49,619 bases of DNA from a virus: positions 1 through 49,619 of the IMG/VR virus record IMGVR_UViG_3300008448_013448. One strand, written 5' to 3'. The notes beneath the pieces were generated by a model. It had not been told where the DNA came from, searched no databases, and saw only the letters and a list, made by a program, of their open reading frames with translations. The first letter of the stretch is position 1. Each line of letters begins with the position of its first letter. The translations under genes and the position numbers were made by a program. This document shows positions 1 to 43,556 of the stretch, one piece after another.

Positions 1-14
1 AATATGTTGTTCAT
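1..14 (-). CDS. start of an unidentified gene running off the left edge
   Basis: An ATG at 14 (minus strand) overlaps the TGA of the 33-aa micro-gene upstream in the ATGA arrangement that is common in this operon. Only four codons (M-N-N-I) lie inside the window, so nothing can be said about function. The call rests on junction style alone. Confidence 0.35.
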
Positions 15-112
15 TTATAGATAAAAGGGTCTCTCTTGCGCAGTTCTTTTAGTTTTCGACGATAGCGAATCTCTAGGGTGATTCTAGCCCATAATCTTTT
101 GATCCAATTCAT
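11..112 (-). CDS. 33-aa basic micro-protein, function unknown
   Basis: The open frame starts at an ATG that overlaps the stop of the 351-aa gene by 4 nt (ATGA) and ends in TGA. The 33-residue product is very rich in Arg and Lys, with aromatic residues near both ends (Trp3 and Trp8, and PFIYK at the C-terminus). It has no signal peptide, Cys pair or membrane segment. Its tight overlap at both ends with neighbouring frames suggests that it is translated as part of the left operon. It could be a small nucleic-acid- or membrane-associated phage protein. A peptide substrate for the radical SAM enzymes is conceivable, but it has no Cys and no Gly-rich leader/core pattern. Confidence 0.5.
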   Translation of the reverse strand: MNWIKRLWARITLEIRYRRKLKELRKRDPFIYK

Positions 113-1164
113 TTTAGTATCCTTGTTTGTTGTTTGCGGTAGTCTGAATCACTCCAACGATAGACGTATGTAGCTTCAGCATCTCGAGTGGAGATTTTGT
201 ACACATCCATATAGTTATTTAACTGCTGCCATATTTCTAAATAGTTAGCTGTGCCAAAACTAGCTAGTAAATTTATTTGTCCAATTTTAGGGTGACCAAT
301 TGTGAGATTTTTATCATCTGGGTCAAACCCGTTTTCTGTTAGCCAGATTCGAAATTCTGCCAATTGTTTTTGTTGCCAATGGAATGCACCTGGATCCCTT
401 GCCCATTCGATGTCAAAATCTCCTGCGGCCAAAGTCTGGGTTTGTAGTGTAGTAGTTGTAAGTTCTTGTATTCGACTGTCTTTACCTTCGTCACAGAACA
501 CTTCCCAATGATGTTTGCCTACTGCTTTATTGACCCCGACATATACTCCGCCCATGTGTCTGTTGATTGTTTCAATTCCAAACAGTTCAAAATCTTCTGC
601 ATCTAGTTCAAATCTGGGTGCCTGGAGCCAGCACATGAGTTGACTGGGACGTTGCCACTCTGGGGCAGTGTGCATTTTTCGGATGCTGAGCGCCAGGCTT
701 TCGTATTCGTGACACAGCAAATTTAATTGCCGTATGTGCCAACGAGTATCAGCATCAGCTTGATAATAATACTTGCTTGTATTTTTAGCAGTTCCTTGAA
801 GGTCTTCAAAATAACGATGAAGATGATTCATTCGTTCTTGATTCAATCTCCACTCTTGTCCTATAGTGTTTTCTACACTGTAGTAATCATCAATTTGGTA
901 TCCTATCCCACTGCGGTTGATTGAATCTATACTGAAATTAATTTGATCGCAAACATATTCAAGAGTTCTAGGACCTTTAGGAAAACCCAAGAAACAATAA
1001 TTTTTTTCTAAATGGTAATTTTCTCGAAGCAAGTGGTTAAGAGCTGTTAACCACTTGCGGCTCAGGCTGTTGTTGTACACATCTATCAGCACAGGCAAGG
1101 TATTGCCGTGTTGGTTTCGCAAAGTTATTACTACCTGATCAAGCAATCGATTTCCACCAGTCAT
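109..1164 (-). CDS. conserved-looking hypothetical protein, 351 aa, last large gene of the radical SAM operon
   Basis: I do not recognise the family. The ATG at 1164 is preceded by a good Shine-Dalgarno sequence (AAGGA, 6 nt away) and overlaps the end of the upstream radical SAM gene by 26 nt, so the two are translationally coupled. The protein is soluble, without signal peptide or membrane segment. It is rich in Trp, His, Tyr and acidic residues, with scattered Cys but no CxxxCxxC motif. Several His/Glu/Asp-rich stretches in the middle (about residues 115-240) could bind metal, but no family motif supports that. Its place at the end of a run of radical SAM and GT-like genes suggests an accessory, scaffold or substrate role in the same pathway; this is inference from position only. 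Confidence 0.75.
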   Translation of the reverse strand: MTGGNRLLDQVVITLRNQHGNTLPVLIDVYNNSLSRKWLTALNHLLRENYHLEKNYCFLGFPKGPRTLEYVCDQINFSIDSINRSGIGYQIDDYYSVENTIGQEWRLNQERMNHLHRYFEDLQGTAKNTSKYYYQADADTRWHIRQLNLLCHEYESLALSIRKMHTAPEWQRPSQLMCWLQAPRFELDAEDFELFGIETINRHMGGVYVGVNKAVGKHHWEVFCDEGKDSRIQELTTTTLQTQTLAAGDFDIEWARDPGAFHWQQKQLAEFRIWLTENGFDPDDKNLTIGHPKIGQINLLASFGTANYLEIWQQLNNYMDVYKISTRDAEATYVYRWSDSDYRKQQTRILK

Positions 1165-2431
1165 GTATTTCCTTGTCTTGAGACAGTATGTCGCTCATAG
1201 TGTATGTATCCTGTCTTATTTGCTCCAGTTGCAAAACTCGTGCTTTGCCTTTGACCAATGCAGCCTGATATGTGTCCGGCCATTGTTCAGCAAATGTGGG
1301 ACGCTGTTTTAATTGCATTAGTAATTCACGCATAACTGAGGTAGTCGATCCGGCAATCAACTGATCTAGTTTGTTGTGCAACAACTCTCGAGGCAATGCT
1401 AGCGGACTCAGTACAATGTCTGGACTGAAGCTAAACACCACTTTGGTCAGTAGATCCACTTGATATTGTTGTGCTAATTTCTGTATGTTGTTGACTTCGA
1501 ACATTCCTGGCAAAGTCAGGGTAAAATCCAGGCGCATCTGACGACTGTGCCGAGTATATGCAAGTCCTTGTTCAAAGTTGTGTTGGAATTGTGTATAGTC
1601 AAGACCCGTTCTAATATACTCGCCAATTGCACCTGTTCCGTCAATGCTGGCACACACTTGCCAATCACGAAGATTGGACAATATATCTCGATACAGATTG
1701 ACACCTCGGTAGTCAACCCTGCTGAGATTAGTATTGTATCGTGCATACACTTTTTGGCCGTCACCTAGTTCAATGATGCGTTGCATGTAGCGCCAGTGCT
1801 GTTCGTACATGAGTGGCTCGCCGCCTACCCAGTACACTTCTTCCACACGGTGTTGTTCCACAGCCTCAGCAAACTCTGCCTCTATTTGTGTGTCCTGGAA
1901 CTGAGATATCTGTCGACGGACCTCAGGCAGTTGCCAGTTATTTTTTGGATCAGCCCAGTTGACCATGTGATGAGTTTTTTGTTCAGTCTCCCAGGCCGAG
2001 GATAGCATATCACCACACATTCTGCACTTGAAGTTGCACAGGTTTGAAAATCTATAGTCCCACGACACCGGCCGCATGGTTGTAGCGCCTGTGGCATCTG
2101 TTGTGTTATACACTTGCTCCAATTTATGACCAAACAAGTGACCAAAGTAATCTCGATAAACACTGGTGTTTAATAATTTGCTGTTGCACACATCGCATTC
2201 GGGCAACGTTTCTCCTGCCAGCATGCGACGACGCACACTACGCATGTGATCACTGTTCCAGTGTTGCTCTAGTGTGATAGGAAGGTACTCACCTGTGCCT
2301 GCTGCTGTGTCAATGTACTGGCGAAAGTTCTGTGCAGGCTCCCTTGACGCACAACACAGACGCCGCTCAGTTTGTGGACTCAGGTAGGTATGCGTCCAAG
2401 GTGCAAGACACAGGGTTTCAGGTTTTGACAT
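1139..2431 (-). CDS. radical SAM protein with N-terminal SPASM/twitch-like Cys cluster (type A)
   Basis: Predicted radical SAM enzyme: a 4Fe-4S cluster on CxxxCxxC cleaves S-adenosylmethionine to start radical chemistry; the substrate is unknown. The core motif is Cys132-x3-Cys136-x2-Cys139 inside SNLCNFKCRMCG, and the GGEP SAM-binding motif follows in YWVGGEPLM. Before the core lies an array of CLAPW (Cys8), Cys26-Cys27 and Cys79-x2-Cys82 preceded by HWNSDHMRSVRRRML. That is the residue pattern of SPASM/twitch auxiliary-cluster domains, here at the N-terminus instead of the usual C-terminus. I choose the ATG at 2431 (430 aa) over a TTG six bases earlier; it gives a 14-nt overlap with the upstream gene. 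It belongs with the 2418 and 3626 genes by motif. Confidence 0.9.
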   Translation of the reverse strand: MSKPETLCLAPWTHTYLSPQTERRLCCASREPAQNFRQYIDTAAGTGEYLPITLEQHWNSDHMRSVRRRMLAGETLPECDVCNSKLLNTSVYRDYFGHLFGHKLEQVYNTTDATGATTMRPVSWDYRFSNLCNFKCRMCGDMLSSAWETEQKTHHMVNWADPKNNWQLPEVRRQISQFQDTQIEAEFAEAVEQHRVEEVYWVGGEPLMYEQHWRYMQRIIELGDGQKVYARYNTNLSRVDYRGVNLYRDILSNLRDWQVCASIDGTGAIGEYIRTGLDYTQFQHNFEQGLAYTRHSRQMRLDFTLTLPGMFEVNNIQKLAQQYQVDLLTKVVFSFSPDIVLSPLALPRELLHNKLDQLIAGSTTSVMRELLMQLKQRPTFAEQWPDTYQAALVKGKARVLQLEQIRQDTYTMSDILSQDKEIHDWWKSIA

Positions 2432-3629
2432 ACTCAATAATCTCGGCCATTTCGGGACATGTCAGGGCAAAATTTTGATCTCGCTTGCGATCCAAGTTGG
2501 CAATCTGAGTGCGCAACTCTTGACCATCTAGGCTTTGCCCGTTGTTCATAAAATTCTTGATAAGCGCAAACTCGTTACGAAACTTTTCTGGCGGCCGGCA
2601 ATTGTCAAGATATGCCGAAATTTGTTTTTTAGCAGTTGTGGGCAATTTAGCAATACTCCATTGCGGTGCATCGTGCAGCATGTTCCAGTAAACAAAATCA
2701 AATCCTTGATAGTCAATCCAGTCGGCAACTGATTTTAAATATCTAACGTTGAAAATATTCACTGTGGTGCAACACTGCAACTGCACGTTTGGCATTGTGG
2801 CTCTCAGCTGTTTGAATTTAACCACGTTCTGTAAAACCTCGATCCAGTCAGCATTGGTTCGTTGATATTCAAATCTTTCACCCACGTCGTCAATACTCAA
2901 AGCAATCTCTACAGTTTTAAAATGCTGCCAGATATCAGGACCAGATTCAGGATATTGTGTACCGTTGGTGTTGTAGTGTATTTCCACTTGAGATGCAATA
3001 CCTCTATCTACAATACCTTGCAACATATCAAAATGTTCTTGTATCATGAACGGTTCGCCACCGGTGAACTCAATGTAGCGTATGTCGTTGATGTGCTGAT
3101 CAATTTGTTGCCAGAAATGTGTGCTTTGTCTAGGCCAGTTACCGGCCTGTAACATCTCATAAGCAAATGTCTGTTTCTGTTGTTCTCGAGGTGTCCACTT
3201 AATTTCCTCTGCTGCATACTGACTGCTTGACCATGAGCCGCAAATGCGACACTTCAAGTTACAGATGTTGCCCAGCTTGAGATCCAGGAACATCAAGGGC
3301 TTGGCATCCTGCGTCCACTCTGTATTAGTTACTGCATGCTTGAGTCGATCCAGAGTATGCATGCGTTTGCTGGTACGTCCTGAATTTTCTTCGTTCCAGC
3401 ATTTTCTACAGGTCTCAGGTTGTTGGCCTTGCAAAAATTGATTTCTCAAAGATTGCATGTGTTTGCTGTTTTGAATATCTTTAAGTTCGGCTGTTCTCAA
3501 GTTAAATTTGCTGCCGGTATCATCAACAATTTCGTCGTCGGCCAAACAACAGGGTCGCACTGTACCAATGGGACTGGCCTCAAGGCTTACCCAAGGCAAC
3601 ATACAGAATTTTTCGTGTGGTATTTTCAT
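2418..3629 (-). CDS. radical SAM protein with N-terminal SPASM/twitch-like Cys cluster (type A)
   Basis: A 403-aa radical SAM family protein. The cluster motif is Cys123-x3-Cys127-x2-Cys130 (ICNLKCRICG), followed by FTGGEPF, the SAM-binding GGEP loop. The N-terminal auxiliary array is FCMLPW (Cys9), PCC (Cys27-28) and CRKC (Cys74/Cys77), with the spacer HMQSLRNQFLQG as in SPASM domains. The start ATG overlaps the upstream stop by 4 nt (ATGA). Family knowledge: SPASM/twitch enzymes often modify peptides, proteins or small carbon-skeleton substrates. Nothing here identifies the substrate. It is divergent from the neighbouring type A genes, so this is an old duplication rather than a recent tandem copy. 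Confidence 0.9.
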   Translation of the reverse strand: MKIPHEKFCMLPWVSLEASPIGTVRPCCLADDEIVDDTGSKFNLRTAELKDIQNSKHMQSLRNQFLQGQQPETCRKCWNEENSGRTSKRMHTLDRLKHAVTNTEWTQDAKPLMFLDLKLGNICNLKCRICGSWSSSQYAAEEIKWTPREQQKQTFAYEMLQAGNWPRQSTHFWQQIDQHINDIRYIEFTGGEPFMIQEHFDMLQGIVDRGIASQVEIHYNTNGTQYPESGPDIWQHFKTVEIALSIDDVGERFEYQRTNADWIEVLQNVVKFKQLRATMPNVQLQCCTTVNIFNVRYLKSVADWIDYQGFDFVYWNMLHDAPQWSIAKLPTTAKKQISAYLDNCRPPEKFRNEFALIKNFMNNGQSLDGQELRTQIANLDRKRDQNFALTCPEMAEIIEYVKT

Positions 3630-4891
3630 AACAATGCTCGCAGTTCTGGGATTACATCAAGACATTTTTCTTTGCGCAATGAATCTAGTTCGTGCGTCTT
3701 GCGCCAAAATGTGTCCAGCAGATGCGTATTGTCTGTGGCATTCATAAATGTAATGGCCGATTCAAATCCTTGTGAGGCACGGCCCAGATCATCGCCTTGC
3801 ATACCAAGCCAATTGATATGTTGTTGAAACTTTTTTTGCAACTGTTGTTTGTATTCAGCAGTGGCAATATCAATTCTATAGTGTGAAGGATCTTGTAGGA
3901 TGTTTACATTCAAATCTTGTGCACGAATAAGTCCTTGTTCGACCCAGGCACGATGAAACTTAGGCAAATGTAGTGCGTTCATTATGCTCAAGGTGGGGCT
4001 GATGTAGAAGTCTACGTCGGGGCACACGGCCAACATGTCTCTACGATTTTGTTCAACCACGGCCCAGTCTGTGCCTTTTCGGATGTATTCTGCTCGAGCA
4101 CCCATGTCATCTAGACTAGCGCCCACTGCCACTGAGTCAAACTGCCTCCAGTATTCAAACACACTTTGACCTTTGAGGTCAGTGTGTGTGAAGTTGGTGT
4201 TGTAGATCAAGCGCACATCGAAACGGCCACGTCGCACCAGTTCATCCAAGATACGATAGTGTTCTTCCATCAACAGGGGCTCACCACCAGCAAAGTAGAT
4301 TTGCTCCACATAGTCCAGGTGTGGTTCCAACTGAGTCCACATGTCTGTTTCTGTACGGCCAGCATAGTTTAACACTGTGTTGCGTTCTTTCCACTCAGGG
4401 CCTGCTAGTTTTGCTTGGTCTTGATACCACTGACTGCTAAAGATGTGTCCACAACTGCGGCACTTGAGATTGCAAAGATTGCTGAAACGAATATCCCAGT
4501 AGGTCATTTCAAACGGATTGGCGTCCAGTTTCTTAACATGATGGCCGTGGTGCTTGTTGGCACTGCGTCGACCACTAAAGAATCCAGATTCTTCCTGTTC
4601 GTAACAACGAGTGCAGGCTGCATGTGGAGTTTCAGTCAGCATGGACTTACGCAGATCCTGCATAGGATGATCCTGCCAAATTTCTTCCAGTGTGTTAGTG
4701 CGGCAGTTGCCCACTTGCCCCACACCCATTTCAGCGTGACAGCAAGGATATGCTTCGCCAGTGGGGTAAGCATGCAAGTGAATCCAAGGATAGATGCAGA
4801 ATGTCTTTGACTCTTTGAGCAAAAACTCTTCACGTTCGGTCAGCTCAACTGGCCGCACAAGATCACTGCTGTTGTAATTGTAATTGGTCAT
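3626..4891 (-). CDS. radical SAM protein with N-terminal SPASM/twitch-like Cys cluster (type A)
   Basis: A 421-aa radical SAM protein. The core motif is Cys140-x3-Cys144-x2-Cys147 (LCNLKCRSCG); GGEP occurs in YFAGGEPLL. The N-terminal array comprises FCIYPW (Cys32), PCC (Cys50-51), an extra Cys63, the spacer IWQDHPMQDLRKSML and CTRC (Cys93/Cys96). This is the clearest SPASM-like arrangement of the five. A 30-residue acidic N-terminal extension precedes it, and a His/Lys-rich linker (residues about 112-121, KHHGHHVKK) joins the auxiliary and core regions. The start overlaps the upstream gene by 29 nt and lacks a strong Shine-Dalgarno sequence. The substrate is unknown. Confidence 0.9.
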   Translation of the reverse strand: MTNYNYNSSDLVRPVELTEREEFLLKESKTFCIYPWIHLHAYPTGEAYPCCHAEMGVGQVGNCRTNTLEEIWQDHPMQDLRKSMLTETPHAACTRCYEQEESGFFSGRRSANKHHGHHVKKLDANPFEMTYWDIRFSNLCNLKCRSCGHIFSSQWYQDQAKLAGPEWKERNTVLNYAGRTETDMWTQLEPHLDYVEQIYFAGGEPLLMEEHYRILDELVRRGRFDVRLIYNTNFTHTDLKGQSVFEYWRQFDSVAVGASLDDMGARAEYIRKGTDWAVVEQNRRDMLAVCPDVDFYISPTLSIMNALHLPKFHRAWVEQGLIRAQDLNVNILQDPSHYRIDIATAEYKQQLQKKFQQHINWLGMQGDDLGRASQGFESAITFMNATDNTHLLDTFWRKTHELDSLRKEKCLDVIPELRALL

Positions 4892-6215
4892 ACCATGTTT
4901 TCATGTTGGGGAACGATGCCGCAAAATCTTTGCCACGACGTTGATCATATTGTGCGTAAAACTTGTGGAAATCATTGTGAAGCTTGGGAAGATCAAATGC
5001 CTCTGAATGCGGAGTTTCGACCACGTCCAGGTAATCTATTAATCTCTGTGTGTGATTAACTTCGTGCTGCTGTAGATAGGGGTTAGCACGATTCTTGTAC
5101 AACCACTCTTGCAATCGCACACGATACCGATCTCTCAACTGCTTGCTCAGCACCAAAGGCGATTGAAAGCTAGGAAATCTCAATATGTTGAGTGTAAAGT
5201 TCACACGGTCGCGTCCATACAAACGTTTGAGATCCAGCATGAGATTCAAATGCGGTACCAGACTGTCTAGGCACAAGGCATTGATTGTGCACATCATGTG
5301 CACTGCTTGGATCCGGCCTGACTTGAGCAGTGTGTGTACATTTTGCAACCACTGGGTGTAATCAAGGCCGTCACGAATATATTCAGCTTGGACTCCTGTG
5401 GCTTCCATACTGGTATACACTTCCACATGCGGCAGAGATTCTACAGCAGAAATGAATTCTTGTAGTTTTTCTTGACTGAATCCAAGGTTGCTGTTAATAG
5501 CCAGCTTGGTAGTACTACGGCCTTGGTTTTGCTTGAACCACTCAATCAGTTTCCAGGTGTAGCCACTCATCAGCGGCTCGCCGCCGGTGATCCTTAGCTC
5601 TTGGAGTGTTTTGTGTAGGTCCGTTTCCCACCACTGGAAGAACGCTTCCACATAAGGATTGGCTTCGTTGAAGGTGTAGAGTTGGCTGCTGTCGTGAGCA
5701 TGAGTAAAGTGATTGCGGCCGTCACTGACCAAGTCTGTGTAAGGTCCAAGTTTTTTGATATCTCGTGCCCAAGTGCTGCTGAATGCAGGGTTGCAATAAC
5801 TGCAGGCAAATTGACAGGTCCGATCAAATGCAATTTCTAGTGTGCGTAAATCAACATCTTGTGCCACAGGTGTTGCGGCTGCTTGATGCAACAGATGTAC
5901 AGGATATATCTTGCTTTTGTAAACACGATCGCTCACAGCGTCACGACTCATGTCTTCGATCTTCCAGCAGTATTCGCAACCTGCTGGCCGCTCGCCCTCA
6001 ATCATTTTGCGGCGGTCCTCTTTTTTTTCAGGAGTATTGTGTAAAAGTTTGGGATTGATCGCCACTTGATCACGATCCACGCGATGTGCCGGTGGATGGT
6101 GGCAACTGGTGGTCATACCTGAACCTAACCATATAGTAGCATTGTACCATTTGGCTGCACAAAAACTGGAACTTAACGGGTCCAGCACCTGCTGTCGAAA
6201 TTCAAGATCTTTCAT
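4863..6215 (-). CDS. radical SAM protein, type B (HPPxHR-containing N-terminal domain)
   Basis: A 450-aa radical SAM protein. The cluster motif is Cys134-x3-Cys138-x2-Cys141 (TCQFACSYC); ITGGEPLM carries the GGEP loop. Its N-terminal domain differs from type A: CAAKW (Cys19), SCHHPPAHR (Cys38), NPKLLHNTPEKK, and then GCEYCW (Cys80/Cys83). The 7250 gene has the same elements in the same order, so these two form a second subfamily. The conserved HPPxHR motif is not a radical SAM core motif and may belong to an auxiliary-cluster or substrate-binding site. The ATG at 6215 overlaps the upstream stop by 14 nt. It has no Shine-Dalgarno sequence; an AT-rich TATAAATT element lies 6 nt before the start. 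Confidence 0.9.
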   Translation of the reverse strand: MKDLEFRQQVLDPLSSSFCAAKWYNATIWLGSGMTTSCHHPPAHRVDRDQVAINPKLLHNTPEKKEDRRKMIEGERPAGCEYCWKIEDMSRDAVSDRVYKSKIYPVHLLHQAAATPVAQDVDLRTLEIAFDRTCQFACSYCNPAFSSTWARDIKKLGPYTDLVSDGRNHFTHAHDSSQLYTFNEANPYVEAFFQWWETDLHKTLQELRITGGEPLMSGYTWKLIEWFKQNQGRSTTKLAINSNLGFSQEKLQEFISAVESLPHVEVYTSMEATGVQAEYIRDGLDYTQWLQNVHTLLKSGRIQAVHMMCTINALCLDSLVPHLNLMLDLKRLYGRDRVNFTLNILRFPSFQSPLVLSKQLRDRYRVRLQEWLYKNRANPYLQQHEVNHTQRLIDYLDVVETPHSEAFDLPKLHNDFHKFYAQYDQRRGKDFAASFPNMKTWYDQLQLQQQ

Positions 6216-7266
6216 TGATATAATTTATAAAACGTTCGGGAAAATCTCTACGCAGTTGAGATCTATATTCTTGCAAATGGGACTGATTGTATTTACATAC
6301 ATTGTAGCAGGATTCAAGGAAACTTGCAAGGTCTTGTTTGCTTAAATCGTCAACCACTTGCACTATACGATCCAGTCTGTCCTGAGTATTATCAATTTGA
6401 TCAAAGCTTTCATCAATGACATGACCAAAAGTTTGAAACCCTAGATTTTTTAAATCTCGATAGAAGCCTCGGTTGGCTGCTGCTATCCAAGGATGCCCAA
6501 TCATAATGGGTTTAGCTATTTTTTCGGTTCTAAAACTATGGGGATAGTCAATCACAGTCTCTGTAACCAAACTAAAATAGGTATCAATATAGGGCTCAGC
6601 TTTGAGATATATTTCTCCCCAGGTGTGTTGAAAAATTTCATGTTTGATCAACTGAGCAGACGTTGGTGTGATTTGATTTTGTTGAAATCTTTCGACTTCA
6701 TACTGCTGAGGAAGCTGTCTAATGTTGTCACCCTCTAGCATGGTCCAAAGAGATTGTGCCAGTAACTCACGGGAGTCAAGCTGATTCCATAGATATTTGC
6801 GATGAGGTCTGGCGCGGCCATTCAAGAATAAAAACTTATACGGCTTTGAAGTTTTACTGTATATCTCGTCCATGCGCAGCATCTGCTCAAGATTGTAATC
6901 ATATCCCAGGATAACATTAAAAAAATGATCATGTAATAGGTACCGATACGACGGATCAAGATCTCCCCCGCTGAGTAACAGTATTTTTCCTTGATCCACA
7001 AGTGGTCGGATTCCCGTTGCAGTAATTTGTTCATGCAAGGTCATGGATCCTTCAGCAGCATTGTCAAAAACAACAACGCCGCCCTGGGCAACAAATTCTT
7101 GAATCTTGGATAAATTGTGTTTGAACTGTTGACGGCCCACAACATAGACTGTGTCAGTTGAGGTTTCAACAGTCTCAAAATCCCAAAATTCTTGGTCAGC
7201 AAAAGGTTTTAACAGATCGTATACTACACTGTGAGTATCAATTGACAGTTTATGTGTTTCTGGCAT
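6202..7266 (-). CDS. glycosyltransferase-like protein (GT-B/FucT-like C-terminal motif), intact paralogue of the split gene at 44995-46114
   Basis: A 354-aa protein between two type B radical SAM genes. I chose the ATG at 7266 because GGGAGGAG lies 10 nt upstream; the earlier GTG would sit directly against that site. The N-terminal half has Rossmann-like beta-alpha segments (VVYDLL, GGVVVFDNAAEG, KILLLSGGD). The middle has FLFLNGRARPHRKYLW. The C-terminal half has FRTEKIAKPIMIGHPW followed by NLGFQTFGHVIDESFD. The last block resembles the nucleotide-sugar-binding end of GT-B enzymes such as fucosyltransferase- and exostosin-like proteins (xTEKxxxPxxxG). That resemblance is from memory of motifs, so a sugar-transfer role is inference. 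A homologue broken by a frameshift lies in the right cluster. Confidence 0.75.
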   Translation of the reverse strand: MPETHKLSIDTHSVVYDLLKPFADQEFWDFETVETSTDTVYVVGRQQFKHNLSKIQEFVAQGGVVVFDNAAEGSMTLHEQITATGIRPLVDQGKILLLSGGDLDPSYRYLLHDHFFNVILGYDYNLEQMLRMDEIYSKTSKPYKFLFLNGRARPHRKYLWNQLDSRELLAQSLWTMLEGDNIRQLPQQYEVERFQQNQITPTSAQLIKHEIFQHTWGEIYLKAEPYIDTYFSLVTETVIDYPHSFRTEKIAKPIMIGHPWIAAANRGFYRDLKNLGFQTFGHVIDESFDQIDNTQDRLDRIVQVVDDLSKQDLASFLESCYNVCKYNQSHLQEYRSQLRRDFPERFINYINERS

Positions 7267-8629
7267 GGTACGCACACTCCTCCCACCATGCCTTCATGTC
7301 CGGAAATGTCTTTAGGAAGTCAGTACCGCGGCGACGATCGTGTTCACTAAAGAATCTGTAAAAGTCTGCCTTGGCGATTGTGTTATCCTGTTGTTGACCT
7401 TGTCGCATCCAGGCAATGTCTCGACGTAGTCGCTGTACTTCGTAGTCTCGGAATCCATGTAGATCTGTAGCGATTAGAGTTTCCATCCAGTCTGCACATT
7501 GTTCCAATTTGATTGCATAGCTTTCTGGCAATATTTGTAGGCTTTGCCAAGCAGGCTGGCGTAGCACAGGCGTGTCAAACCACACACGCTGATATGTTTT
7601 ACTATAGTTCTCTCGAAGGCGCAAGATCCATTCCATGTATTCTCGGAATCCAGTAACACTCAAGTTATTCATTGTGATGATAAACGTAAGGCTATTGCGA
7701 TGGGGAACTTGTGTAAGATACTGATTTACGTTACTGATTACACGGTCTGCACTCATACCGTGTCTAATGTATTCGGCCTGAAATCCATTGCCTGAATCCA
7801 AACTCACATACTGCATGAAGTGCTCAATTTGTGTATTGCACAAACGTTTTACATAGTCCAAGTACTTTTCAAACAGTGCATCTTCTACTGAAAAGTTCGA
7901 TGTTACATTTAAGTGCAGATCAGATTTGGGCTGAGTCAATACATAGTCAAACACTCGATAGGTGTTTTTGTCCATGAGTGGCTCGCCGCCGGTCATGCGA
8001 AAGTGCCTAAGTTGCGGGTACAGTGTGGGCCACCACTGCCAAAATGCTTCCACATAAGGATTGTGCTCTCGTACAGGTATTACTCTGCGTTCACCCCGAA
8101 AGTGCGCAGGATTGTTGTGCACAGTGGATGTGGGATAGCCGCCGTGTCGATCCACTTCCTGTTGCCATGTTGAACTAAATTGCGGACTACAGTAACTGCA
8201 GGCAAGGTTGCACACGTTGTTGAAGTTGACTTCCACATAGCTGGGTACAACATCATCTTCAAGTCCGGTACTGGCAGAAATACGATCAAGGTCCGCAGCA
8301 GCCCAGGACTCGCCTGAACGGTAGTGACGATCGCTGAGTTCTCCTAGATCCTCCATGTTCCAACAATACTGACATTCTGAAGGACGTTGGTCCTGCAGCA
8401 TGATCACTCGCTGTTGTTTTTTGTAAGGAGTGTTGTGTAGCTGTCCTGGGTTGGTGTCTAGGCCTTCTATAGGTATACGATGTAGTGGAGGGTGATAGCA
8501 TGAGTTGGTGAGTCCTGTGGGCAAATGCAGACTCACCTGCTTCCATTTGGCCAAGCACAGTGCAGGACCCAGCTTGGTCTGCATGTCTTCGGCGGAGTTC
8601 ATAAATTTACTTTGATCGCCTTTGGACAT
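7250..8629 (-). CDS. radical SAM protein, type B (HPPxHR-containing N-terminal domain)
   Basis: A 459-aa radical SAM protein and the first of the five to be transcribed. The core motif is Cys140-x3-Cys144-x2-Cys147 (VCNLACSYC); MTGGEPLM is the SAM-binding loop. The N-terminal elements match those of the 4863 gene one by one: CLAKW (Cys25), SCYHPPLHR (Cys44), NPGQLHNTPYKK and ECQYCW (Cys86/Cys89). The C-terminal region ends with FYRFFSEHDRRRGTDFLKTFPDMKAW-type sequence, which the 4863 protein also carries, so homology extends over the full length. Start and upstream stop share one base (TAATG), with GGAAGG upstream as ribosome binding site. The substrate is unknown. Confidence 0.9.
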   Translation of the reverse strand: MSKGDQSKFMNSAEDMQTKLGPALCLAKWKQVSLHLPTGLTNSCYHPPLHRIPIEGLDTNPGQLHNTPYKKQQRVIMLQDQRPSECQYCWNMEDLGELSDRHYRSGESWAAADLDRISASTGLEDDVVPSYVEVNFNNVCNLACSYCSPQFSSTWQQEVDRHGGYPTSTVHNNPAHFRGERRVIPVREHNPYVEAFWQWWPTLYPQLRHFRMTGGEPLMDKNTYRVFDYVLTQPKSDLHLNVTSNFSVEDALFEKYLDYVKRLCNTQIEHFMQYVSLDSGNGFQAEYIRHGMSADRVISNVNQYLTQVPHRNSLTFIITMNNLSVTGFREYMEWILRLRENYSKTYQRVWFDTPVLRQPAWQSLQILPESYAIKLEQCADWMETLIATDLHGFRDYEVQRLRRDIAWMRQGQQQDNTIAKADFYRFFSEHDRRRGTDFLKTFPDMKAWWEECAYHARNT

Positions 8630-9555
8630 TACCAGCCTTCCTGATGTCTAATTACATCTATTTCTCTCACCATGACACCGCGATTTTGCCAATCTGTACG
8701 ATAGTGTTGTTTGAAAAAACAACTCTGTTCTGATTCAAAAATTGCAACAGGCAATGCCAATTGAGTGCTGAGATCTACACCAAGACTATCGCTAATGCTT
8801 CTGGGCTCAGAGTCCTTGACTGTGAGCCATAATTCTTCTAAAGCATCAAAGCTTTGTACCTGTCGATGATCCCAAGCAGTCAGCATGGTCATGTGTGTGC
8901 CCTGGCGGGCTCCGGCAATGGCCCATTCGCCATGTTCTGCATCTGTACCAATGTTGTGCCAGATAGTAAGATGATCCAGATTTCTTTGATGTACTTGACT
9001 AGTAAATTCTGCACTAGATATACGTTGCCCGCGATTTAAACACATTTTGACACCTTCTCGAAACCCGGCACGCCAGGCTTGAAACGCTGAACCATTGGGA
9101 TATGTGGTCGAATAGCAATCGTGCATGGCCCAGTACAAGGGATCAAAACAAAACTCTACTTCGGTCTCTGTTCTTCCATCGGTGGCTTCATGTGTGCGCA
9201 TGTTTTCAACAAATGTTCGAGTCCAGCTACTAAGACCGCCGTTGCCATACATGAGGCCATTTACTGCATTACGTGCTCTCCAACGAAACACTGCCTGTTC
9301 GTATTCAGGTGTAGCGAACTGCAGAGTTTTGTTGAAAAATTCTGGGTCAGGAATGTTGTCACCGTCGATTAGCACAAAACGTTCTGTAGTACTGGCGGCG
9401 GCAGCGGCTTTGTGAGCAGCATCTGAACCTTTGACTCCGTCTACTCGACGTGCCCAGGGCACCATGTTGCGAATCTGTGCCCAAGTTTCTTCCTTGTTGG
9501 GCTCATCGTAGCTGAGATAAATGCAGTCTAGATCTGCAATGTCAATCAATTTCAT
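8629..9555 (-). CDS. GT-A-like glycosyltransferase-fold protein
   Basis: A predicted 308-aa protein with GT-A-like features. The N-terminal strand ends in CIYLSYDEPN, followed by the hydrophobic strand FVLIDGDNIPD (residues 60-70). That stretch has the DxD-type acidic pair (Asp64/Asp66) which binds metal and nucleotide-sugar in GT-A enzymes. A glycine/Trp-rich middle (YGNGGLSSWTR) and a HNIGTDAEHGEWAIAGARQG segment follow. The open frame extends upstream, but I prefer the ATG at 9555 (MKLIDIAD): it has GGA upstream and the 14-nt overlap seen at other junctions. It lies just upstream of the radical SAM genes. Donor and acceptor cannot be told from sequence. Confidence 0.7.
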   Translation of the reverse strand: MKLIDIADLDCIYLSYDEPNKEETWAQIRNMVPWARRVDGVKGSDAAHKAAAAASTTERFVLIDGDNIPDPEFFNKTLQFATPEYEQAVFRWRARNAVNGLMYGNGGLSSWTRTFVENMRTHEATDGRTETEVEFCFDPLYWAMHDCYSTTYPNGSAFQAWRAGFREGVKMCLNRGQRISSAEFTSQVHQRNLDHLTIWHNIGTDAEHGEWAIAGARQGTHMTMLTAWDHRQVQSFDALEELWLTVKDSEPRSISDSLGVDLSTQLALPVAIFESEQSCFFKQHYRTDWQNRGVMVREIDVIRHQEGW

Positions 9556-9892
9556 GTTGTTGATTCCATAATGTACCGTTGTTGGGCACAATCACACACA
9601 CATCTTGCACATGACATTGTGTACCTGACTTGGCCCCGGGCACCAGTTTCTGTACCTGCTGCCTGGGTTTGATGATTATCAATTTTCCGTCTTGCACACG
9701 AGCAGGTTTGGCAGCAGCAAGATATTGTTCTTTAGTGACTTGTGTATAGTTACCTGGGACATGATCCATGGTATAAAAGTCCACTGTTCCATCATCTAGG
9801 TAATAGCACCGATACTCAATTGGCTTTGATTCGGGCCAGACAAAACTGTTCCAGACTTGCCAAAAATTATCTGTAGTTTCTTGGTTGCTCAC
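9542..9892 (-). CDS. small hypothetical protein (116 aa)
   Basis: I do not recognise the family. The open frame extends to an upstream ATG at 9934, but the GTG at 9892 gives a 4-nt GTGA overlap with the upstream gene's stop, which I take as the real start. The product is small and soluble, with a Trp/Tyr-rich N-terminal half (FWQVWNSFVW, YRCYYLDDGTVDFYTMDH) and a basic stretch KLIIIKPRQQVQKLVPG. Two Cys lie close together near the C-terminus (QCHVQDVCVIV). It sits between two GT-like genes; a role with them is plausible only by position. Confidence 0.6.
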   Translation of the reverse strand: MSNQETTDNFWQVWNSFVWPESKPIEYRCYYLDDGTVDFYTMDHVPGNYTQVTKEQYLAAAKPARVQDGKLIIIKPRQQVQKLVPGAKSGTQCHVQDVCVIVPNNGTLWNQQHEID

Positions 9893-10623
9893 GACACTGT
9901 CCAATCTTTGTTGTGATAATGCACCATACCCCACTGTGCAACTGTTTGTATTCTCAACGGGTTGGATTCCCAGACTAATTCTTGTGTCCAGTCATGTTGC
10001 ACCGGAATTATCCCTGGTTTCATGTGCACAATACTTGGTGATATCCCTGGAGGCAAGGTTACCCGTTCAACGCCCACAACTGTTGCGGCCATGGCATACA
10101 CAACATCTGTACTGGGAAATTCTTCAGGGTACGCCAACAGTGTTCGCCATTGTTGCCAGTTTTCAAATATGTCGCGCACTGTGGTAAAAAATTCCTGTGC
10201 AGTTGGACTTAGACGCCAGTAAGTTATGGCGTTGTACACATCTGGCAGAGAATTAGCATCAAATATTTTGCGATACTTTCTTTCGGTGGTAGCACGATCG
10301 TAAAAATCTCGTGCACCTTGACTGATTACTACATCTTGTTTTTCAAACAGGTTCCACCAGTGATCAACGGGACCAGCAGCAATCATGTCAGCTTCTAGTT
10401 TGATTGTTTGACGATACGGGCTTGCCTCAAAGCACTGCCAGTCATTGGCATAGCCACCCTGATCACCGTGGGGCAGTTGATCCTGCGTTAATATGGTAAT
10501 GTGTGCATCCGGATGAAACTGCCTGATACTGTGGGCCAGCTGTGTGGCACAGCGCACATAATCAACTGTGTCTGTGTTAAATGCAGGGATCAGATATCCC
10601 CTCTCATGCAAAATTTTTGGCAA
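9889..10623 (-). CDS. GT-A/GT8-like glycosyltransferase-fold protein, TTG start
   Basis: A 244-aa protein starting at TTG (10623), supported by AGGAG 7 nt upstream; the frame overlaps the preceding gene by 20 nt. The order of elements is that of GT8-like proteins: N-terminal strand GYLIPAFNTDTVDYVRCA, strand HITILTQDQ, then IKLEADMIAAGPVDHWW near residue 77, where LEAD stands in the place of the DxD motif. A loop with YNAITYWRLS and a C-terminal HMKPG/HYHNKD segment follow; His residues near the C-terminus often complete the metal site in GT8. It is a sister of the 10604 gene, with similar layout but low identity. The sugar and acceptor are unknown. Confidence 0.65.
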   Translation of the reverse strand: MPKILHERGYLIPAFNTDTVDYVRCATQLAHSIRQFHPDAHITILTQDQLPHGDQGGYANDWQCFEASPYRQTIKLEADMIAAGPVDHWWNLFEKQDVVISQGARDFYDRATTERKYRKIFDANSLPDVYNAITYWRLSPTAQEFFTTVRDIFENWQQWRTLLAYPEEFPSTDVVYAMAATVVGVERVTLPPGISPSIVHMKPGIIPVQHDWTQELVWESNPLRIQTVAQWGMVHYHNKDWTVS

Positions 10624-11416
10624 CTATATCTCCTAAATGTCGTTTGCCCATGGCATGAAAATCTTGTGATTGTAAATTAACATAGCGACGTTGACCCCGA
10701 CTGTTAACAAAATCAATTTGATAATGGTCTTGCCCTGTTTGTTCAATCTTGTGGTCAGGCAGTACACTGACCAACTGCCAGGGTATTTGTGCATGATTTA
10801 GTGTGTGTCCATTTACGATGCCCAGTGCAATCGACAGTGCATGATCATTACGATACACACTGTTGCCAGTTTGGTACAGATGCCGATAGTGCGCCCAATT
10901 ATCACGTATCATTTTCATGGACTCAAATGTGAGTTTTGCTGCTGGGCCTCGGCGGAACATCACCACCGTGGCCCACCACATGGGCATATGATGCGTACCA
11001 AAATAATTTAATCCAGAAAAATCATTTTCTCCTGTGGCATCCATGGCTGTTTGATGCGCTAAAAAATCTTGCTCTGACTCTAGAATTGACTGCAAAGCAT
11101 TGCTGGCCACAACATAATCAGCATCCAGCAACAAGGTCCGATCCCAGGGTGACATATCATATGCGTCCACTCGCCCGGCATTGTACCAGGTGACTGTTTG
11201 TTCATAATCCACAAAATATCTTTGGCCACCTGCTGCCGGCTCTGCTGATATCACGTGTTCAAAGTGAGACTTGATCAGGGGATGGTCACAGTCGTTAGTA
11301 ATTATTGCCACCGGGATATCAAGATGGCGGCGAATATTTTGTGCCGACCATGCAGCCAACTGAACATAGTCTGTATGCTCATTGTTGAAGGCAAAGATAA
11401 GTGCGCCAGTGGTCAT
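10604..11416 (-). CDS. GT8-like glycosyltransferase-fold protein
   Basis: A 270-aa protein. It starts with ALIFAFNNEHTDYVQLAAWSAQNIRRHLDIPVAIITND, the Rossmann-like opening of nucleotide-sugar transferases. LLLDADYVVAS follows at about residues 95-105, with a clear DxD (about Asp98/Asp100). Then come MWWATVVMFRRGPAAKLTFESM and RNDHALSIALGI, the latter resembling the GT8 region that contacts the acceptor. No signal peptide or membrane segment is seen. The ATG overlaps the upstream stop (ATGA). Together with 9889 and 8629 it makes three GT-A-like proteins in 3 kb upstream of the radical SAM array. The family assignment rests on motif order only. Confidence 0.7.
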   Translation of the reverse strand: MTTGALIFAFNNEHTDYVQLAAWSAQNIRRHLDIPVAIITNDCDHPLIKSHFEHVISAEPAAGGQRYFVDYEQTVTWYNAGRVDAYDMSPWDRTLLLDADYVVASNALQSILESEQDFLAHQTAMDATGENDFSGLNYFGTHHMPMWWATVVMFRRGPAAKLTFESMKMIRDNWAHYRHLYQTGNSVYRNDHALSIALGIVNGHTLNHAQIPWQLVSVLPDHKIEQTGQDHYQIDFVNSRGQRRYVNLQSQDFHAMGKRHLGDIVAKNFA

Positions 11417-11721
11417 CGTTGTTGACTAAGTTGATCGTGTTCTACCAACCAGGCATTCATCTGTTCTTGCCAACGATCGTGGGCTAGACGTTGTAGTTCA
11501 CTAGGATTTACCTGCACCGGATTTTCGTAAAGATCCAAGATCACAATGTCATCTTGTACTGGACAGGCATGTAGTAATGTTATTAGTTCGGGCCCAGCTT
11601 GAAACATGCCGCCTTGATAGGCAAACAGCATCTTGGCCTTGTATTTTTCTTTAAGCAAGCGTCTTGCTGCTGCATGGTCAAAGCGAGCTCGACCGTGGGC
11701 GATAAGTTGATCAGTATCCAT
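11413..11721 (-). CDS. small conserved-looking phage protein (102 aa)
   Basis: First gene of the left operon. The 102-aa protein has a charged helical N-terminus (RARFDHAAARRLLKEKYKAKM), a central GGMFQAGPELITLL segment, an acidic strand (DDIVILDLYENPVQVN) and a helical C-terminus rich in Gln and Trp. It looks like a compact alpha/beta protein of a type that recurs in T4-like aquatic phages, but I cannot attach a function. No Shine-Dalgarno sequence is seen before the ATG, and the sequence just upstream is AT-rich. It follows the terminator of the structural operon, so it probably marks the start of a separate transcript. Confidence 0.65.
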   Translation of the reverse strand: MDTDQLIAHGRARFDHAAARRLLKEKYKAKMLFAYQGGMFQAGPELITLLHACPVQDDIVILDLYENPVQVNPSELQRLAHDRWQEQMNAWLVEHDQLSQQR

Positions 11722-11727
11722 TTTGAT

Positions 11728-11756
11728 ATTTTAGCAGAATTTTAGTCAAAAGTAAA
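11728..11756 (-). promoter_or_regulatory. possible sigma70-like promoter for the left operon
   Basis: On the minus strand, TTTACT (11756-11751) is followed after 17 nt by TAAAAT (11733-11728), about 6 nt before the ATG of the 102-aa gene. The -10 is good and the -35 is weak (4 of 6). The predicted transcript would have almost no leader. Some new promoter is needed here because a terminator lies directly upstream, but read-through or a late-type element (CTAAAATA) would also fit. Confidence 0.35.
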
Positions 11757-11774
11757 GGGCTCCAAGAGCCCTTT
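11754..11774 (-). terminator. hairpin terminator of the structural operon
   Basis: A perfect 9-bp inverted repeat (AAAGGGCTC / GAGCCCTTT) with a 3-nt loop lies 20 nt after the stop of the last structural gene. On the minus strand it is followed by ACTTTTGACT, a modest T-rich tail. This is the only strong rho-independent-type hairpin I found in the window. It separates structural genes from the accessory operon. Confidence 0.8.
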
Positions 11775-11793: not shown

Positions 11794-12795
11794 TTATGCC
11801 ACAGAGCTGGCAATAGTTGGAGTACCCCAACTTGCAGACAAATACGTAGTGCTGGGTGGAATCAAATTCAACAGTGTGGTTGGCGCAGTTCCAGTGATGC
11901 TTGTGGCAGGCGATGATGTAGCAGTTCCGCCAGTGATGTTGGCGGTGGTTCCGGCAGTTGCAGTTCCATCATCGTTCCACACTGTGGTAAATGTCAACAC
12001 TGTACTGCCAGCATTGAGCGCCACTTGAGTTCTAATAAATTCAGGTGTATACGGGGCTGTGGTGTTGTTGAGTTGGAAAATTGTCACAGCGGCGCCGGCT
12101 GGGGTTAAATTATAAAAACCTGTGGTGGTTGCCAGTGTGGTCTGTGTACCACCTGATCCACTGAGTCTAGTGGTTCCAGTGTAAGCTTGTCCAGCAATGG
12201 TGTTGGTTGTGCTGTTGACTCGACCAGTGAAATTAATACTGCCTGGCTGACCTGCTAGTGTGTTCCAGTCTGGATCATGATCGGTGCCAGTACTGCTTTT
12301 GCCGTACAACAATCTCACAATACCACCTGCATTGAAAAAGTATCTTGCAGCAGCGGCGCTGGCAAATGTCACTGTTTGAGTAAAGGTAATGGTCCAGGCA
12401 GCTTGTCCTGATCCTGTGGCAGTGGTCTTGGATACTGCGCCAGAAAATGTGCTGATTGCAGTTCCGCTGGCTGCAGCATTGCCTCGACTGGTGGTCAAGG
12501 CAGTGATGTCGGTGCTTACGTTGTTCAATACAGCAATAATATTACCAGCCACTGGTGCTGTTCTTGAAGTAATAGCTGTGCCCTGGTGACTACCCACTGC
12601 AGCCAGATTGTTTACCAAGGTGGCCCAATTAGTAGCTGTGACAATTCCGCCTGTGCTGACTGCGCTAATGTCAGTCTGGCCATATCCAGCATCTCCGCTG
12701 CCGGTGCTCCAAACTCTGTTTAGTCCAGCAGTGGTATTACCAGCAAAGGTATTGTAGTCACTTGCCTCAATTAATCCACCAGTGGTGTACGACAT
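11794..12795 (-). CDS. virion structural / tail-fibre-like protein
   Basis: A 333-aa protein, last gene of the structural operon. It is Thr/Ser/Gly/Ala-rich with almost no Cys or Lys, typical of beta-rich phage fibre or head-decoration proteins. The N-terminus repeats a motif: GGLIEASDYNTFAGNTTAGLNRVW is echoed by GGIVTATNWATLVNNLAAVG. The central part has long runs of small residues and NTTAPYTPEF-type beta segments. GAGGAAAG provides a strong ribosome binding site. The gene sits directly after the 458-aa fibre-like gene and before the terminator. I infer an adsorption or decoration role; I do not recognise a named family. Confidence 0.65.
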   Translation of the reverse strand: MSYTTGGLIEASDYNTFAGNTTAGLNRVWSTGSGDAGYGQTDISAVSTGGIVTATNWATLVNNLAAVGSHQGTAITSRTAPVAGNIIAVLNNVSTDITALTTSRGNAAASGTAISTFSGAVSKTTATGSGQAAWTITFTQTVTFASAAAARYFFNAGGIVRLLYGKSSTGTDHDPDWNTLAGQPGSINFTGRVNSTTNTIAGQAYTGTTRLSGSGGTQTTLATTTGFYNLTPAGAAVTIFQLNNTTAPYTPEFIRTQVALNAGSTVLTFTTVWNDDGTATAGTTANITGGTATSSPATSITGTAPTTLLNLIPPSTTYLSASWGTPTIASSVA

Positions 12796-42546: not shown

Positions 42547-43556
42547 ATCTATTTAAAAAAGCTGCGGTATTTACTGACATCCATTTTGGACTCAAGAGCA
42601 ACAGCACATTACACAACGAAGACTGTTTGGCATTTGTAAAATGGGCCACTGAAAAAGCCCGGGAACAAGGTTGCGAAACCTGCTTGTTCTTAGGTGACTG
42701 GCACAACCATCGTGCCAGTATCAACATTGTGACCCTTAACTACAGCCTGCAGGCACTGGAGCACATGAACAACAATTTTGAACATGTGTATTTTATTCCC
42801 GGCAATCACGACTTGTACTATCGCGACCGTCGAGACATTCAAAGCGTGGAGTTCGCTAAACACCTGCCCCGTGTCACAATTTGCAATGATTGGTTCACCG
42901 ACGGCAATGTGACCATTGCTCCTTGGCTGTGCGGCGATGATCACAAACGTCTGGCCGCCATGAGCGGTCAGTACTTGTTTGGTCACTTTGAACTGCCCGG
43001 CTATCTCATGAACGCTATGATAGCCATGCCCGATCATGGTGCGATTCAGCGTGATGATCTTGGCGGCTTTGGGCATGTGTTTACTGGACACTTTCACAAA
43101 AGGCAGACCAAAAAGAACATCACCTATATTGGCAACTGTTTCCCTCACAATTATGCTGATGCTGGAGACGACGAACGTGGCATGATGATCCTGGAATGGG
43201 GCCAGGAACCTGAGTATCATGCCTGGCCCGATCAACCCACTTATCGAGTGTATGGCCTGGCCAACTTGATCGACAATGCCCCCGAAATTTTAAGATCCAA
43301 GATGCATGTGCGTGTGAACTTGGACATTGACATTTCATACGAAGAAGCCAACTACATCAAAGAAACATTTATTCGACAGTATGACCTGCGTGAAATGAGC
43401 TTGGTACCCAACAAGACTGCAGGTGTAGGCGAGGATCTTGCGCCGGGCGAAATCAAATTTGAATCAGTGGATCAGATTGTGACTGATCAGATCACCAGCA
43501 TTGATTCAGAATTTTATGACTCCAAACTGCTATTACAAATCTATCAAAACTTATGA
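42543..43556 (+). CDS. 47: recombination nuclease subunit gp47 (Mre11/SbcD-like)
   Basis: A 337-aa calcineurin-like metallophosphoesterase. All metal-binding motifs are in order: FTDIHFG (Asp12, His14), FLGDWHNHR (Asp52), IPGNHD (Asn88-His89), GHFELPG near residue 150 and GHFHKRQ (His183, His185). The length matches T4 gp47 (339 aa). With gp46 it forms the Mre11/Rad50-type complex that resects DNA ends for recombination-dependent replication. It is separated from gp46 by about 2.5 kb of accessory genes. Base composition is richer in GC than the flanking insertions. Confidence 0.95.
   Translation: MNLFKKAAVFTDIHFGLKSNSTLHNEDCLAFVKWATEKAREQGCETCLFLGDWHNHRASINIVTLNYSLQALEHMNNNFEHVYFIPGNHDLYYRDRRDIQSVEFAKHLPRVTICNDWFTDGNVTIAPWLCGDDHKRLAAMSGQYLFGHFELPGYLMNAMIAMPDHGAIQRDDLGGFGHVFTGHFHKRQTKKNITYIGNCFPHNYADAGDDERGMMILEWGQEPEYHAWPDQPTYRVYGLANLIDNAPEILRSKMHVRVNLDIDISYEEANYIKETFIRQYDLREMSLVPNKTAGVGEDLAPGEIKFESVDQIVTDQITSIDSEFYDSKLLLQIYQNL

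Follow-up and report, generated by a model that had tools for sequence, protein, structure and literature searches.

Five radical SAM genes stand close together in a DNA of 49,619 nucleotides (hereafter the window) from a large aquatic phage, and they raise the question of whether a virus performs its own multi-step radical chemistry and on what substrate. An earlier note on this DNA had proposed a maintained pathway of divergent enzymes. Our analysis indicates that the virus very probably does run its own multi-step radical chemistry, because the five enzymes are encoded in an ancient, strictly conserved operon together with sugar-transferase-like genes.

The five radical SAM proteins and their operon

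The five complete open reading frames lie on the minus strand at 1139-8629, and all encode N-terminal-twitch radical SAM proteins (N_Twi_rSAM), as was confirmed by the profile search that the earlier note had called for. Full-length matches to NF033640 were obtained for rS1 (1139..2437, 432 aa, 284.5 bits), rS2 (2418..3629, 403 aa, 342.6 bits), rS3 (3626..4891, 421 aa, 392.4 bits), rS4 (4863..6215, 450 aa, 298.8 bits) and rS5 (7250..8629, 459 aa, 315.4 bits), i.e., 284-392 bits against a curated cut-off of 170, and no protein of the control genomes exceeded this cut-off. The CxxxCxxC and GGEP motifs are intact in all five, as had been claimed. The claimed divergence was also borne out, with identities of 31, 25, 20 and 22% between rS3 and the other four. 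Each protein contains an additional N-terminal set of 4-5 Cys (twitch/SPASM cluster; four Cys in rS4), which the earlier note did not mention. The auxiliary-cluster domain of rS1-rS5 is N-terminal, and the features of classical SPASM peptide maturases (C-terminal SPASM, RRE and precursor peptide) were not found. A profile of rS3 had no match among the solved structures in the PDB, and no NF033640 enzyme with a known substrate was found.

The operon exceeds the 7.5 kb suggested previously, since it extends from 11721 to 11 on the minus strand and reaches the end of the record. The gene order is o11413-GTc-GTb-o9542-GTa-rS5-GT-B-rS4-rS3-rS2-rS1-o109-peptide-carbamoyltransferase, with overlaps at all 11 gene junctions. 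A terminator-like hairpin with a 9-bp stem (11754..11774, minus strand) separates the operon from a fibre-like gene upstream (11794-12795), and the operon adjoins tail genes. The hairpin was observed at the equivalent place in 39 of 44 relatives, where the stem sequences differ yet stay complementary. The overlapping junctions and the conserved hairpin support co-transcription, and from this arrangement of the sequence we conclude that the operon is a discrete unit, starting after a conserved terminator downstream of the fibre-like gene.

The gene that interrupts the array, o6202 (6202..7275, minus strand), is glycosyltransferase-like as described before, but it is predicted to be GT-B and not GT-A. 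Its AlphaFold2 model (pLDDT 91.6) matched GT-B enzymes best in Foldseek, i.e., glycogen synthase, alpha1,3-fucosyltransferase, POGLUT1 and PglA (E 2e-3 to 4e-3, probability 0.89-0.98, TM about 0.3-0.45), suggesting a GT-B glycosyltransferase by remote homology. Co-transcription of the three genes proposed as GT-A-like was supported, but their family assignment was less secure. GTa (8629..9591, minus strand) matched PF13641 (GT2) below the cut-off (E 1.8e-4) and has an invariant D76-G77-D78. GTb (9889..10623) and GTc (10604..11416), on the same strand, are GT-A-like by a DxD-type motif only, which in GTc is the invariant D98-A-D100. GTb belongs to phrog_1903, of unknown function, and matched nothing in Pfam or the PDB when 20 orthologues were included; GTc had no Pfam match and no meaningful PDB match. 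PDB profile searches with the GT-A-like genes and o6202 gave no useful match.

Three further proteins are encoded on the minus strand of the operon. The first gene, o11413 (11413..11721), encodes a conserved protein of 102 aa, and o9542 (9542..9934) a small, variable conserved protein with a median identity of 39%. The phage-only conserved protein o109 (109..1164) was modelled by AlphaFold2 with a pLDDT of 86; the fold had no PDB match, and its 9 BFVD matches (E<=0.001) were all uncharacterised phage proteins.

Conservation and descent of the block

Across the 80 viral contigs surveyed as relatives, the order of the genes in the block was never violated; collinearity is conserved in jumbo relatives and largely so in marine phage contigs. 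All five radical SAM genes were present wherever the locus could be assessed, as was each of the other block genes (GTa 74/74, o9542 70/70, o109 71/71 and o11413 53/53 loci). The best conserved of the five enzymes is rS3, with 75-90% identity across the 80 viral loci and a pN/pS of 0.18, for which pS is saturated. As judged from these sequence comparisons, the operon is under strong purifying selection.

All Fe-S-type cysteines of the five proteins (38/38) are 100% conserved among 57-64 distinct orthologues per gene. The invariant positions are 10, 28, 29, 81, 84 and 134, 138, 141 in rS1 (57 distinct orthologues), 9, 27, 28, 74, 77 and 123, 127, 130 in rS2 (61 orthologues), 19, 38, 80, 83 and 134, 138, 141 in rS4 (62 orthologues) and 25, 44, 86, 89 and 140, 144, 147 in rS5 (62 orthologues). 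Loss of the block in related phages, or decay of the active-site Cys, had been named in the earlier note as arguments against a working pathway, and neither was found.

In the phylogeny the enzymes form five separate clades, one for each, with rS5 as the sister group of rS4. Every clade holds orthologues from marine phages and from chromosomal clusters of Bdellovibrionota, a phylum of predatory bacteria. Hence the five enzymes are, on phylogenetic grounds, an old co-inherited set and not a recent duplication, and the conservation in assessable loci and the invariant Cys support the maintained set that had been proposed. Additional N_Twi_rSAM genes were gained or lost inside the block in some relatives, and each jumbo relative encodes 7-19 radical SAM proteins of this type.

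The five enzyme types are also clustered in a Bdellovibrionota genome, where the phage glycosyltransferases are missing. Orthologues of rS1 occur in this phylum, in one genome in the arrangement glmU-rS1-glmS; GT2 and sugar-nucleotidyltransferase genes are neighbours in two genomes, and one genome groups an rS1-type gene with an amidinotransferase, a carbamoyltransferase, an ABC transporter and a GT2. In bacteria, the most complete counterpart of the set is the locus G170, and the presence there of a carrier-protein (polyketide-like) gene implies that carbamoyl- and amidinotransferases need not mean a glycan. Bacterial N_Twi_rSAM neighbourhoods were rejected as a guide to the substrate, because the 128 neighbours scanned had no common theme; no glycan theme was found near the single-copy bacterial genes.

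Associated enzymes and the likely substrate

The window ends only a few codons (MNNI) into an O-carbamoyltransferase gene (1..14, minus strand), which is cut by the record end. The sequence ATGAACAACATATT matches the carbamoyltransferase start of the nearest relative, L001 (MNNILGISAGF; PF16861/PF02543), and the gene was found in 70 of the 80 relatives. These proteins are of the NodU/TobZ type, with Carbam_trans_N and Carbam_trans_C domains (PF02543 and PF16861 above cut-off), and their closest solved relatives are decarbamoylnovobiocin carbamoyltransferase, GdmN and TobZ. A putative amidinotransferase gene lies near the block in 47/80 relatives and is absent from the window, which ends before it. 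It is homologous to AGAT, StrB1-type inosamine-phosphate amidinotransferase, SxtG and HsvA (E 1e-14, the best stretch being the C-terminal part). One marine single-cell virus contig carries amidinotransferase, carbamoyltransferase and N_Twi_rSAM genes together.

Between o109 and the carbamoyltransferase, a 33-aa peptide, MNWIKRLWARITLEIRYRRKLKELRKRDPFIYK, is encoded at 11..112 (minus strand), overlapping both o109 and the carbamoyltransferase start (ATGA). A tiny peptide ending in RDPFIY[K/R] has a carbamoyltransferase within 3 kb in 99/120 viral contigs; the number of chance occurrences expected for the motif pattern in the window is 0.00. In many of these contigs the retrieved stretch has no radical SAM genes. 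This distribution suggests that the peptide is a partner of the carbamoyltransferase, and it led us to reject the initial idea of a RiPP precursor on which the radical SAM enzymes would act.

Accessory genes inserted in or near the block encode, among other proteins, a GDP-mannose-dehydratase-type epimerase, UDP-glucose dehydrogenase, DegT aminotransferases, GHMP and PfkB sugar kinases, an FkbM methyltransferase and GT25. IscU and A-type Fe-S carriers were found in 6/6 jumbo genomes checked.

We propose that the phage encodes a pathway to a glycan that is carbamoylated, possibly also amidinated, and is placed on the virion fibre or the host envelope, and we give this reading, whose chemistry and target we infer, an even chance. 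The invariant order, conserved Cys, purifying selection, five clades and discrete operon beside a fibre-like gene are consistent with it, as are the carbamoyl- and amidinotransferases with their solved relatives, the sugar-type accessory genes, the sugar-gene neighbours in Bdellovibrionota, the pairing in Vibrio phage K566 described below, the marine single-cell virus contig and the Fe-S carriers. Late in infection, the five twitch enzymes would use SAM to alter a sugar or amino-sugar unit step by step through redox reactions or rearrangements, with Fe-S clusters supplied by phage IscU and A-type carriers. The amidinotransferase and O-carbamoyltransferase would cap this unit, the RDPFIYK peptide probably anchoring or activating the latter, and the GT-A/GT-B-like enzymes would assemble the glycan on the upstream-encoded tail-fibre protein or the host envelope. 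The decoration would probably serve to change recognition, to protect the virion or to keep competing phages out. Against the glycan pathway, the link between the fibre-like gene and the operon is positional only, GTb and GTc lack support from any family profile, and neither a substrate precedent in NF033640 nor a glycan theme near single-copy bacterial genes was found; the carrier-protein gene of G170 also counts against it.

Most of the SPASM/twitch enzymes that have been characterised mature peptides, and the five proteins could likewise each act at a specific site in the fibre, in another virion protein or in a RiPP-like operon peptide, followed by glycosylation as in mycofactocin. The fibre-like gene directly upstream and the small products of the operon (o9542, o11413 and the 33-aa peptide) would fit, and many divergent paralogues would suit one enzyme per site. 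However, the peptide tracks the carbamoyltransferase and not the radical SAM genes, profile searches reported no RRE/PqqD-like domain for the block proteins, and the associated amidino- and carbamoyltransferase families act on small molecules and sugars; we regard a protein or peptide substrate as unlikely. A soluble small molecule, i.e., an aminoglycoside- or polyketide-like natural product or a redox cofactor acting in the host cell or against competitors, appears quite improbable: the glycosyltransferase-like genes are retained, the operon is linked to the fibre gene, and no exporter was found in the conserved block, even though relatives of both transferases are known from natural-product pathways, an AMP-binding ligase occurs in 15 loci and G170 has its carrier-protein gene.

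Radical SAM enzymes are known in phage DNA modification. A carbamoyltransferase also acts there on 5-hydroxymethylcytosine (PMC8670742), and the two activities could hypermodify the phage DNA, with the radical SAM enzymes acting on thymidine derivatives. PF00303 (thymidylate synthase family, including dCMP/dUMP hydroxymethylases) was absent from six relatives of 320-353 kb, whose contigs are possibly incomplete, and was found in 9/14 genomes of a control search. Hydroxymethyl-pyrimidine modification is therefore disfavoured, and since the operon moreover adjoins tail genes, we consider DNA hypermodification very improbable. That the genes are paralogues in decay or with no connection to one another, or that they arose by a recent tandem duplication and share no role, is scarcely credible and largely refuted by the five old clades, zero losses, intact Cys and purifying selection; only the extra N_Twi_rSAM genes that come and go within the block speak for it.

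A broader form of the glycan proposal is possible but rather doubtful: an ancient five-enzyme set common to large aquatic phages and Bdellovibrionota would make a novel carbamoylated and amidinated sugar for tail fibres or the host envelope. It would draw on phage Fe-S assembly proteins, and tiny PFIY-tailed peptides, as a new class, would partner the carbamoyltransferase.

Comparison with known systems

Among the auxiliary genes of aquatic viruses, those for radical SAM proteins have repeatedly been listed without an explanation. As a fixed set of five orthologues in fixed order, they become a single pathway that can be tested. Entry points are the isolated Vibrio phage K566, the bacterial chromosomes that carry these enzyme types and the glmU-rS1-glmS arrangement. 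Should the product be a new virion sugar decoration, it would show that viruses run radical chemistry on glycans and could also explain the Fe-S assembly genes in these phages. No description of the five-enzyme block was found in the open-access literature.

Aminoglycoside pathways use twitch/SPASM sugar enzymes (e.g., BtrN), a StrB1-type amidinotransferase and a TobZ-type carbamoyltransferase, and thus share with the phage system the auxiliary-cluster radical SAM, amidinotransferase and O-carbamoyltransferase kinds of enzyme. Compared with BtrN-type enzymes, the phage auxiliary-cluster domain is N-terminal, and rS3 has no sequence match to solved structures. In mycobacteriophage virion glycosylation we know of no radical SAM chemistry. 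It is, according to the passage citing it, likewise a phage-encoded sugar decoration of virion proteins (Freeman et al. 2023, cited in PMC12619734).

The view that such an array would be unusual for a virus has to be softened. The T4-like marine virus TARA_ERS488813_N000010, reported in 2017, combines 12 radical SAM genes with a phage gene for an Fe-S carrier in a single genome (PMC5332604), but the passages giving this count concern Fe-S proteins and describe no conserved five-enzyme operon and no link to glycosyl-, carbamoyl- or amidinotransferases. The host-recognition cluster in the tail-fibre region of pelagimyophages, reported in 2020, likewise has glycosyltransferases and radical SAM cassettes alongside fibre genes (PMC7029224), and pelagimyophage HTVC008M also has a NodU-type carbamoyltransferase. 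That cluster is hypervariable and its cassettes are optional (PMC7029224), whereas the present block is invariant and collinear. The isolated jumbo Vibrio phages K566/K567 carry four N_Twi_rSAM genes beside glycosyltransferase-like genes; no carbamoyltransferase was seen in the stretch examined, and their radical SAM proteins, with about 21-26% identity, are not orthologous to rS1-rS5.

Conservation of the radical SAM set

The 49.6-kb window derives from a myovirus, with tail and baseplate families at about 28.8-40.7 kb. An ORF check found the five radical SAM genes complete and unbroken on the minus strand where the earlier note had placed them (rS1, 1139-2437; rS2, 2418-3629; rS3, 3626-4891; rS4, 4863-6215; rS5, 7250-8629). 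All five products are members of the same NCBIfam family, NF033640 (twitch domain-containing radical SAM protein, N_Twi_rSAM); they score 284-392 bits, where 170 bits is the cut-off. The other four are 20-31% identical to rS3, the best conserved. Each contains the CxxxCxxC and GGEP motifs and an additional N-terminal set of 4-5 Cys. Since this Cys set is present besides CxxxCxxC, the sequences indicate that each protein should bind two Fe-S clusters.

The block was mapped in 80 related viral contigs by tblastn and ORF mapping. The order of the five genes was identical in all sufficiently long contigs, without a single violation. rS2, rS3 and rS4 were each present in 80 of 80 assessable contigs, rS1 in 78 of 78 and rS5 in 77 of 77, so that none of the five was lost where assessable. 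The flanking genes were found in 100% of assessable loci, and some relatives carried additional radical SAM and glycosyltransferase-like insertions in the block. All radical SAM and auxiliary-cluster Cys were identical across 57-64 distinct orthologues per gene. The pN/pS ratios of rS1-rS5 were 0.18-0.28 and synonymous sites were near saturation (0.75-0.79); therefore, the true dN/dS values are lower still. The earlier note had proposed a working pathway, and this view withstood the checks on both block conservation and Cys decay. It is very probable that rS1-rS5 form a functional, co-inherited set.

The large related phages (jumbo relatives) each contain 7-19 N_Twi_rSAM-matching genes. All six jumbo genomes tested (G001, G002, G003, G006, G008 and G010, of loci L003, L004, L010, L018, L029 and L079) encode IscU (PF01592, with E-values of about 1e-53 to 1e-56) together with two A-type Fe-S carriers (PF01521), the genes often lying side by side. 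Both observations fit a real use of many Fe-S enzymes.

The operon and its ends

All 11 gene junctions between 11721 and 109 overlap by 1-50 bases. The first operon gene is separated from the fibre-like gene (11794-12795) by a terminator-like hairpin (11754-11774), of which counterparts were observed in 39 of 44 relatives, with stem sequences that differ and stay complementary. Because simple promoter and terminator scans gave nothing above chance, the evidence for a terminator is this conservation of the hairpin. 3' of o109 (109-1164), the window contains a 33-aa ORF (11-112) and then the initial 14 bases of another gene. These 14 bases match the start of a carbamoyltransferase gene in the nearest relative, L001. 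In 70 of 80 loci, the block is followed by this carbamoyltransferase of the NodU/TobZ type (PF02543 and PF16861), which is on the block strand in all 61 with a measured distance, and an AGAT/StrB1-type amidinotransferase is found near the block on the opposite strand in 47 of the 80.

The 33-aa peptide, encoded on the minus strand, has an amphipathic, variable start and the near-invariant end ELRKRDPFIYK. Peptides ending in RDPFIY[K/R], mostly of 26-50 aa, are in most cases located immediately upstream of or near NodU-type carbamoyltransferases (loci L196-L315). Viral contigs were searched for the peptide with a degenerate DNA pattern, which gave at least 120 matches; among the 120 listed, a carbamoyltransferase was within 3 kb in 99, 12 had no room for one, and 9 had room and none. 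At five of eight carbamoyltransferase loci in bacteria, an analogous peptide of about 50 aa with one hydrophobic stretch and the end PF[IV]Y[TS][LV]F is encoded nearby; it may resemble DUF5989. A reasonable hypothesis is that the micropeptide serves as a membrane anchor or activator of the carbamoyltransferase.

Three other genes of the window were observed. The o109 product is conserved with a confident predicted fold that had no match in the PDB, and its relatives are solely uncharacterised phage proteins, including one of Agrobacterium phage Atu_ph07. A single 4598-aa ORF (15007-28803) between the fibre-like and baseplate genes may encode a virion protein, for instance a giant fibre. A short-chain dehydrogenase/epimerase-like gene (43553-44176, plus strand) adjoins SbcCD-type genes.

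Possible chemistry and acceptor

No solved structure matched rS3, and no characterised NF033640 member was found in the literature searched. The glycosyltransferase-like genes, the two transferase families, the inserted sugar cassettes and the bacterial and phage neighbourhoods together point indirectly to sugars. The product of the gene between rS4 and rS5 (6202-7275) has a confident predicted fold; among solved structures, it comes closest to glycosyltransferases of the GT-B type, although the E-values are marginal. GTa (8629-9591) shows weak GT2 similarity. The block-linked carbamoyltransferase and amidinotransferase belong to families whose substrates are sugars, cyclitols and further small molecules. 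Cassettes in or near the block of relatives encode a nucleotide-sugar epimerase and dehydrogenase, sugar kinases, DegT aminotransferases, an FkbM methyltransferase and GT25. In one Bdellovibrionota genome (L187:8245-12833), an rS1-type gene shares its strand with the glmU and glmS genes that flank it, and two clusters of this group adjoin GT2 and sugar nucleotidyltransferase genes. Another Bdellovibrionota locus (L195:2370-13572) contains an amidinotransferase, four radical SAM genes including an rS1-type gene, a carbamoyltransferase, an ABC transporter ATPase and a GT2, and is weaker as glycan evidence because it starts with a carrier-protein gene. A marine single-cell virus contig combines N_Twi_rSAM, carbamoyltransferase and amidinotransferase, and the cultured jumbo Vibrio phage K566 (L164, 151572-172750) has four N_Twi_rSAM genes beside genes for proteins that are glycosyltransferase-like by motif. 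Our judgement is evenly poised on whether the operon product is a glycan decoration. Three of the four N_Twi_rSAM genes of K566 carry a radical SAM annotation and the fourth is listed as a hypothetical gene; a gene for PagP lies in the vicinity.

The fibre-like gene directly upstream of the operon kept its position in 50 of 50 assessable jumbo relatives, and in five marine contigs it also precedes the block. Because of this conserved position, and on gene position alone, the fibre or the host envelope is the likeliest acceptor. Hydroxymethyl-pyrimidine modification of DNA is disfavoured as an alternative target, since a thymidylate-synthase-family gene was absent from all six relatives of 320-353 kb.

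Origin and relation to known systems

In a maximum-likelihood tree, which came from a quick search, has SH-aLRT as its only branch support and contains some long branches, rS1-rS5 formed five separate clades, with rS4 and rS5 as sister groups. Within each clade, the window gene joins jumbo-phage orthologues first, marine phage contigs next (short contigs binned into marine MAGs, with a fibre homologue) and Bdellovibrionota proteins last. All five types, their Cys motifs intact, lie within about 12 kb of each other on a chromosome contig of a Bacteriovoracaceae genome (UBA6144, L092). rS1-type genes were found in 12 of 291 Bdellovibrionota genomes, one of them on a 2.66-Mb contig, and several adjoin rS2-type or rS4-type genes. 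This scattered distribution suggests horizontal transfer. Similar-looking proteins of about 320 aa with a nucleotidyltransferase-like SD[LI]DLT motif adjoin rS5-type genes in two Bdellovibrionota loci (L092:15718-16680 and L109:11151-12128), and had no match in Pfam.

In the open-access literature searched, we found no description of a conserved collinear five-enzyme radical SAM set, of an orthologous set in Bdellovibrionota, or of a link between such a set and carbamoyl- and amidinotransferases. Phages with many radical SAM genes are already known (PMC5332604), and so are cassettes of radical SAM genes in the neighbourhood of fibre genes (PMC7029224).
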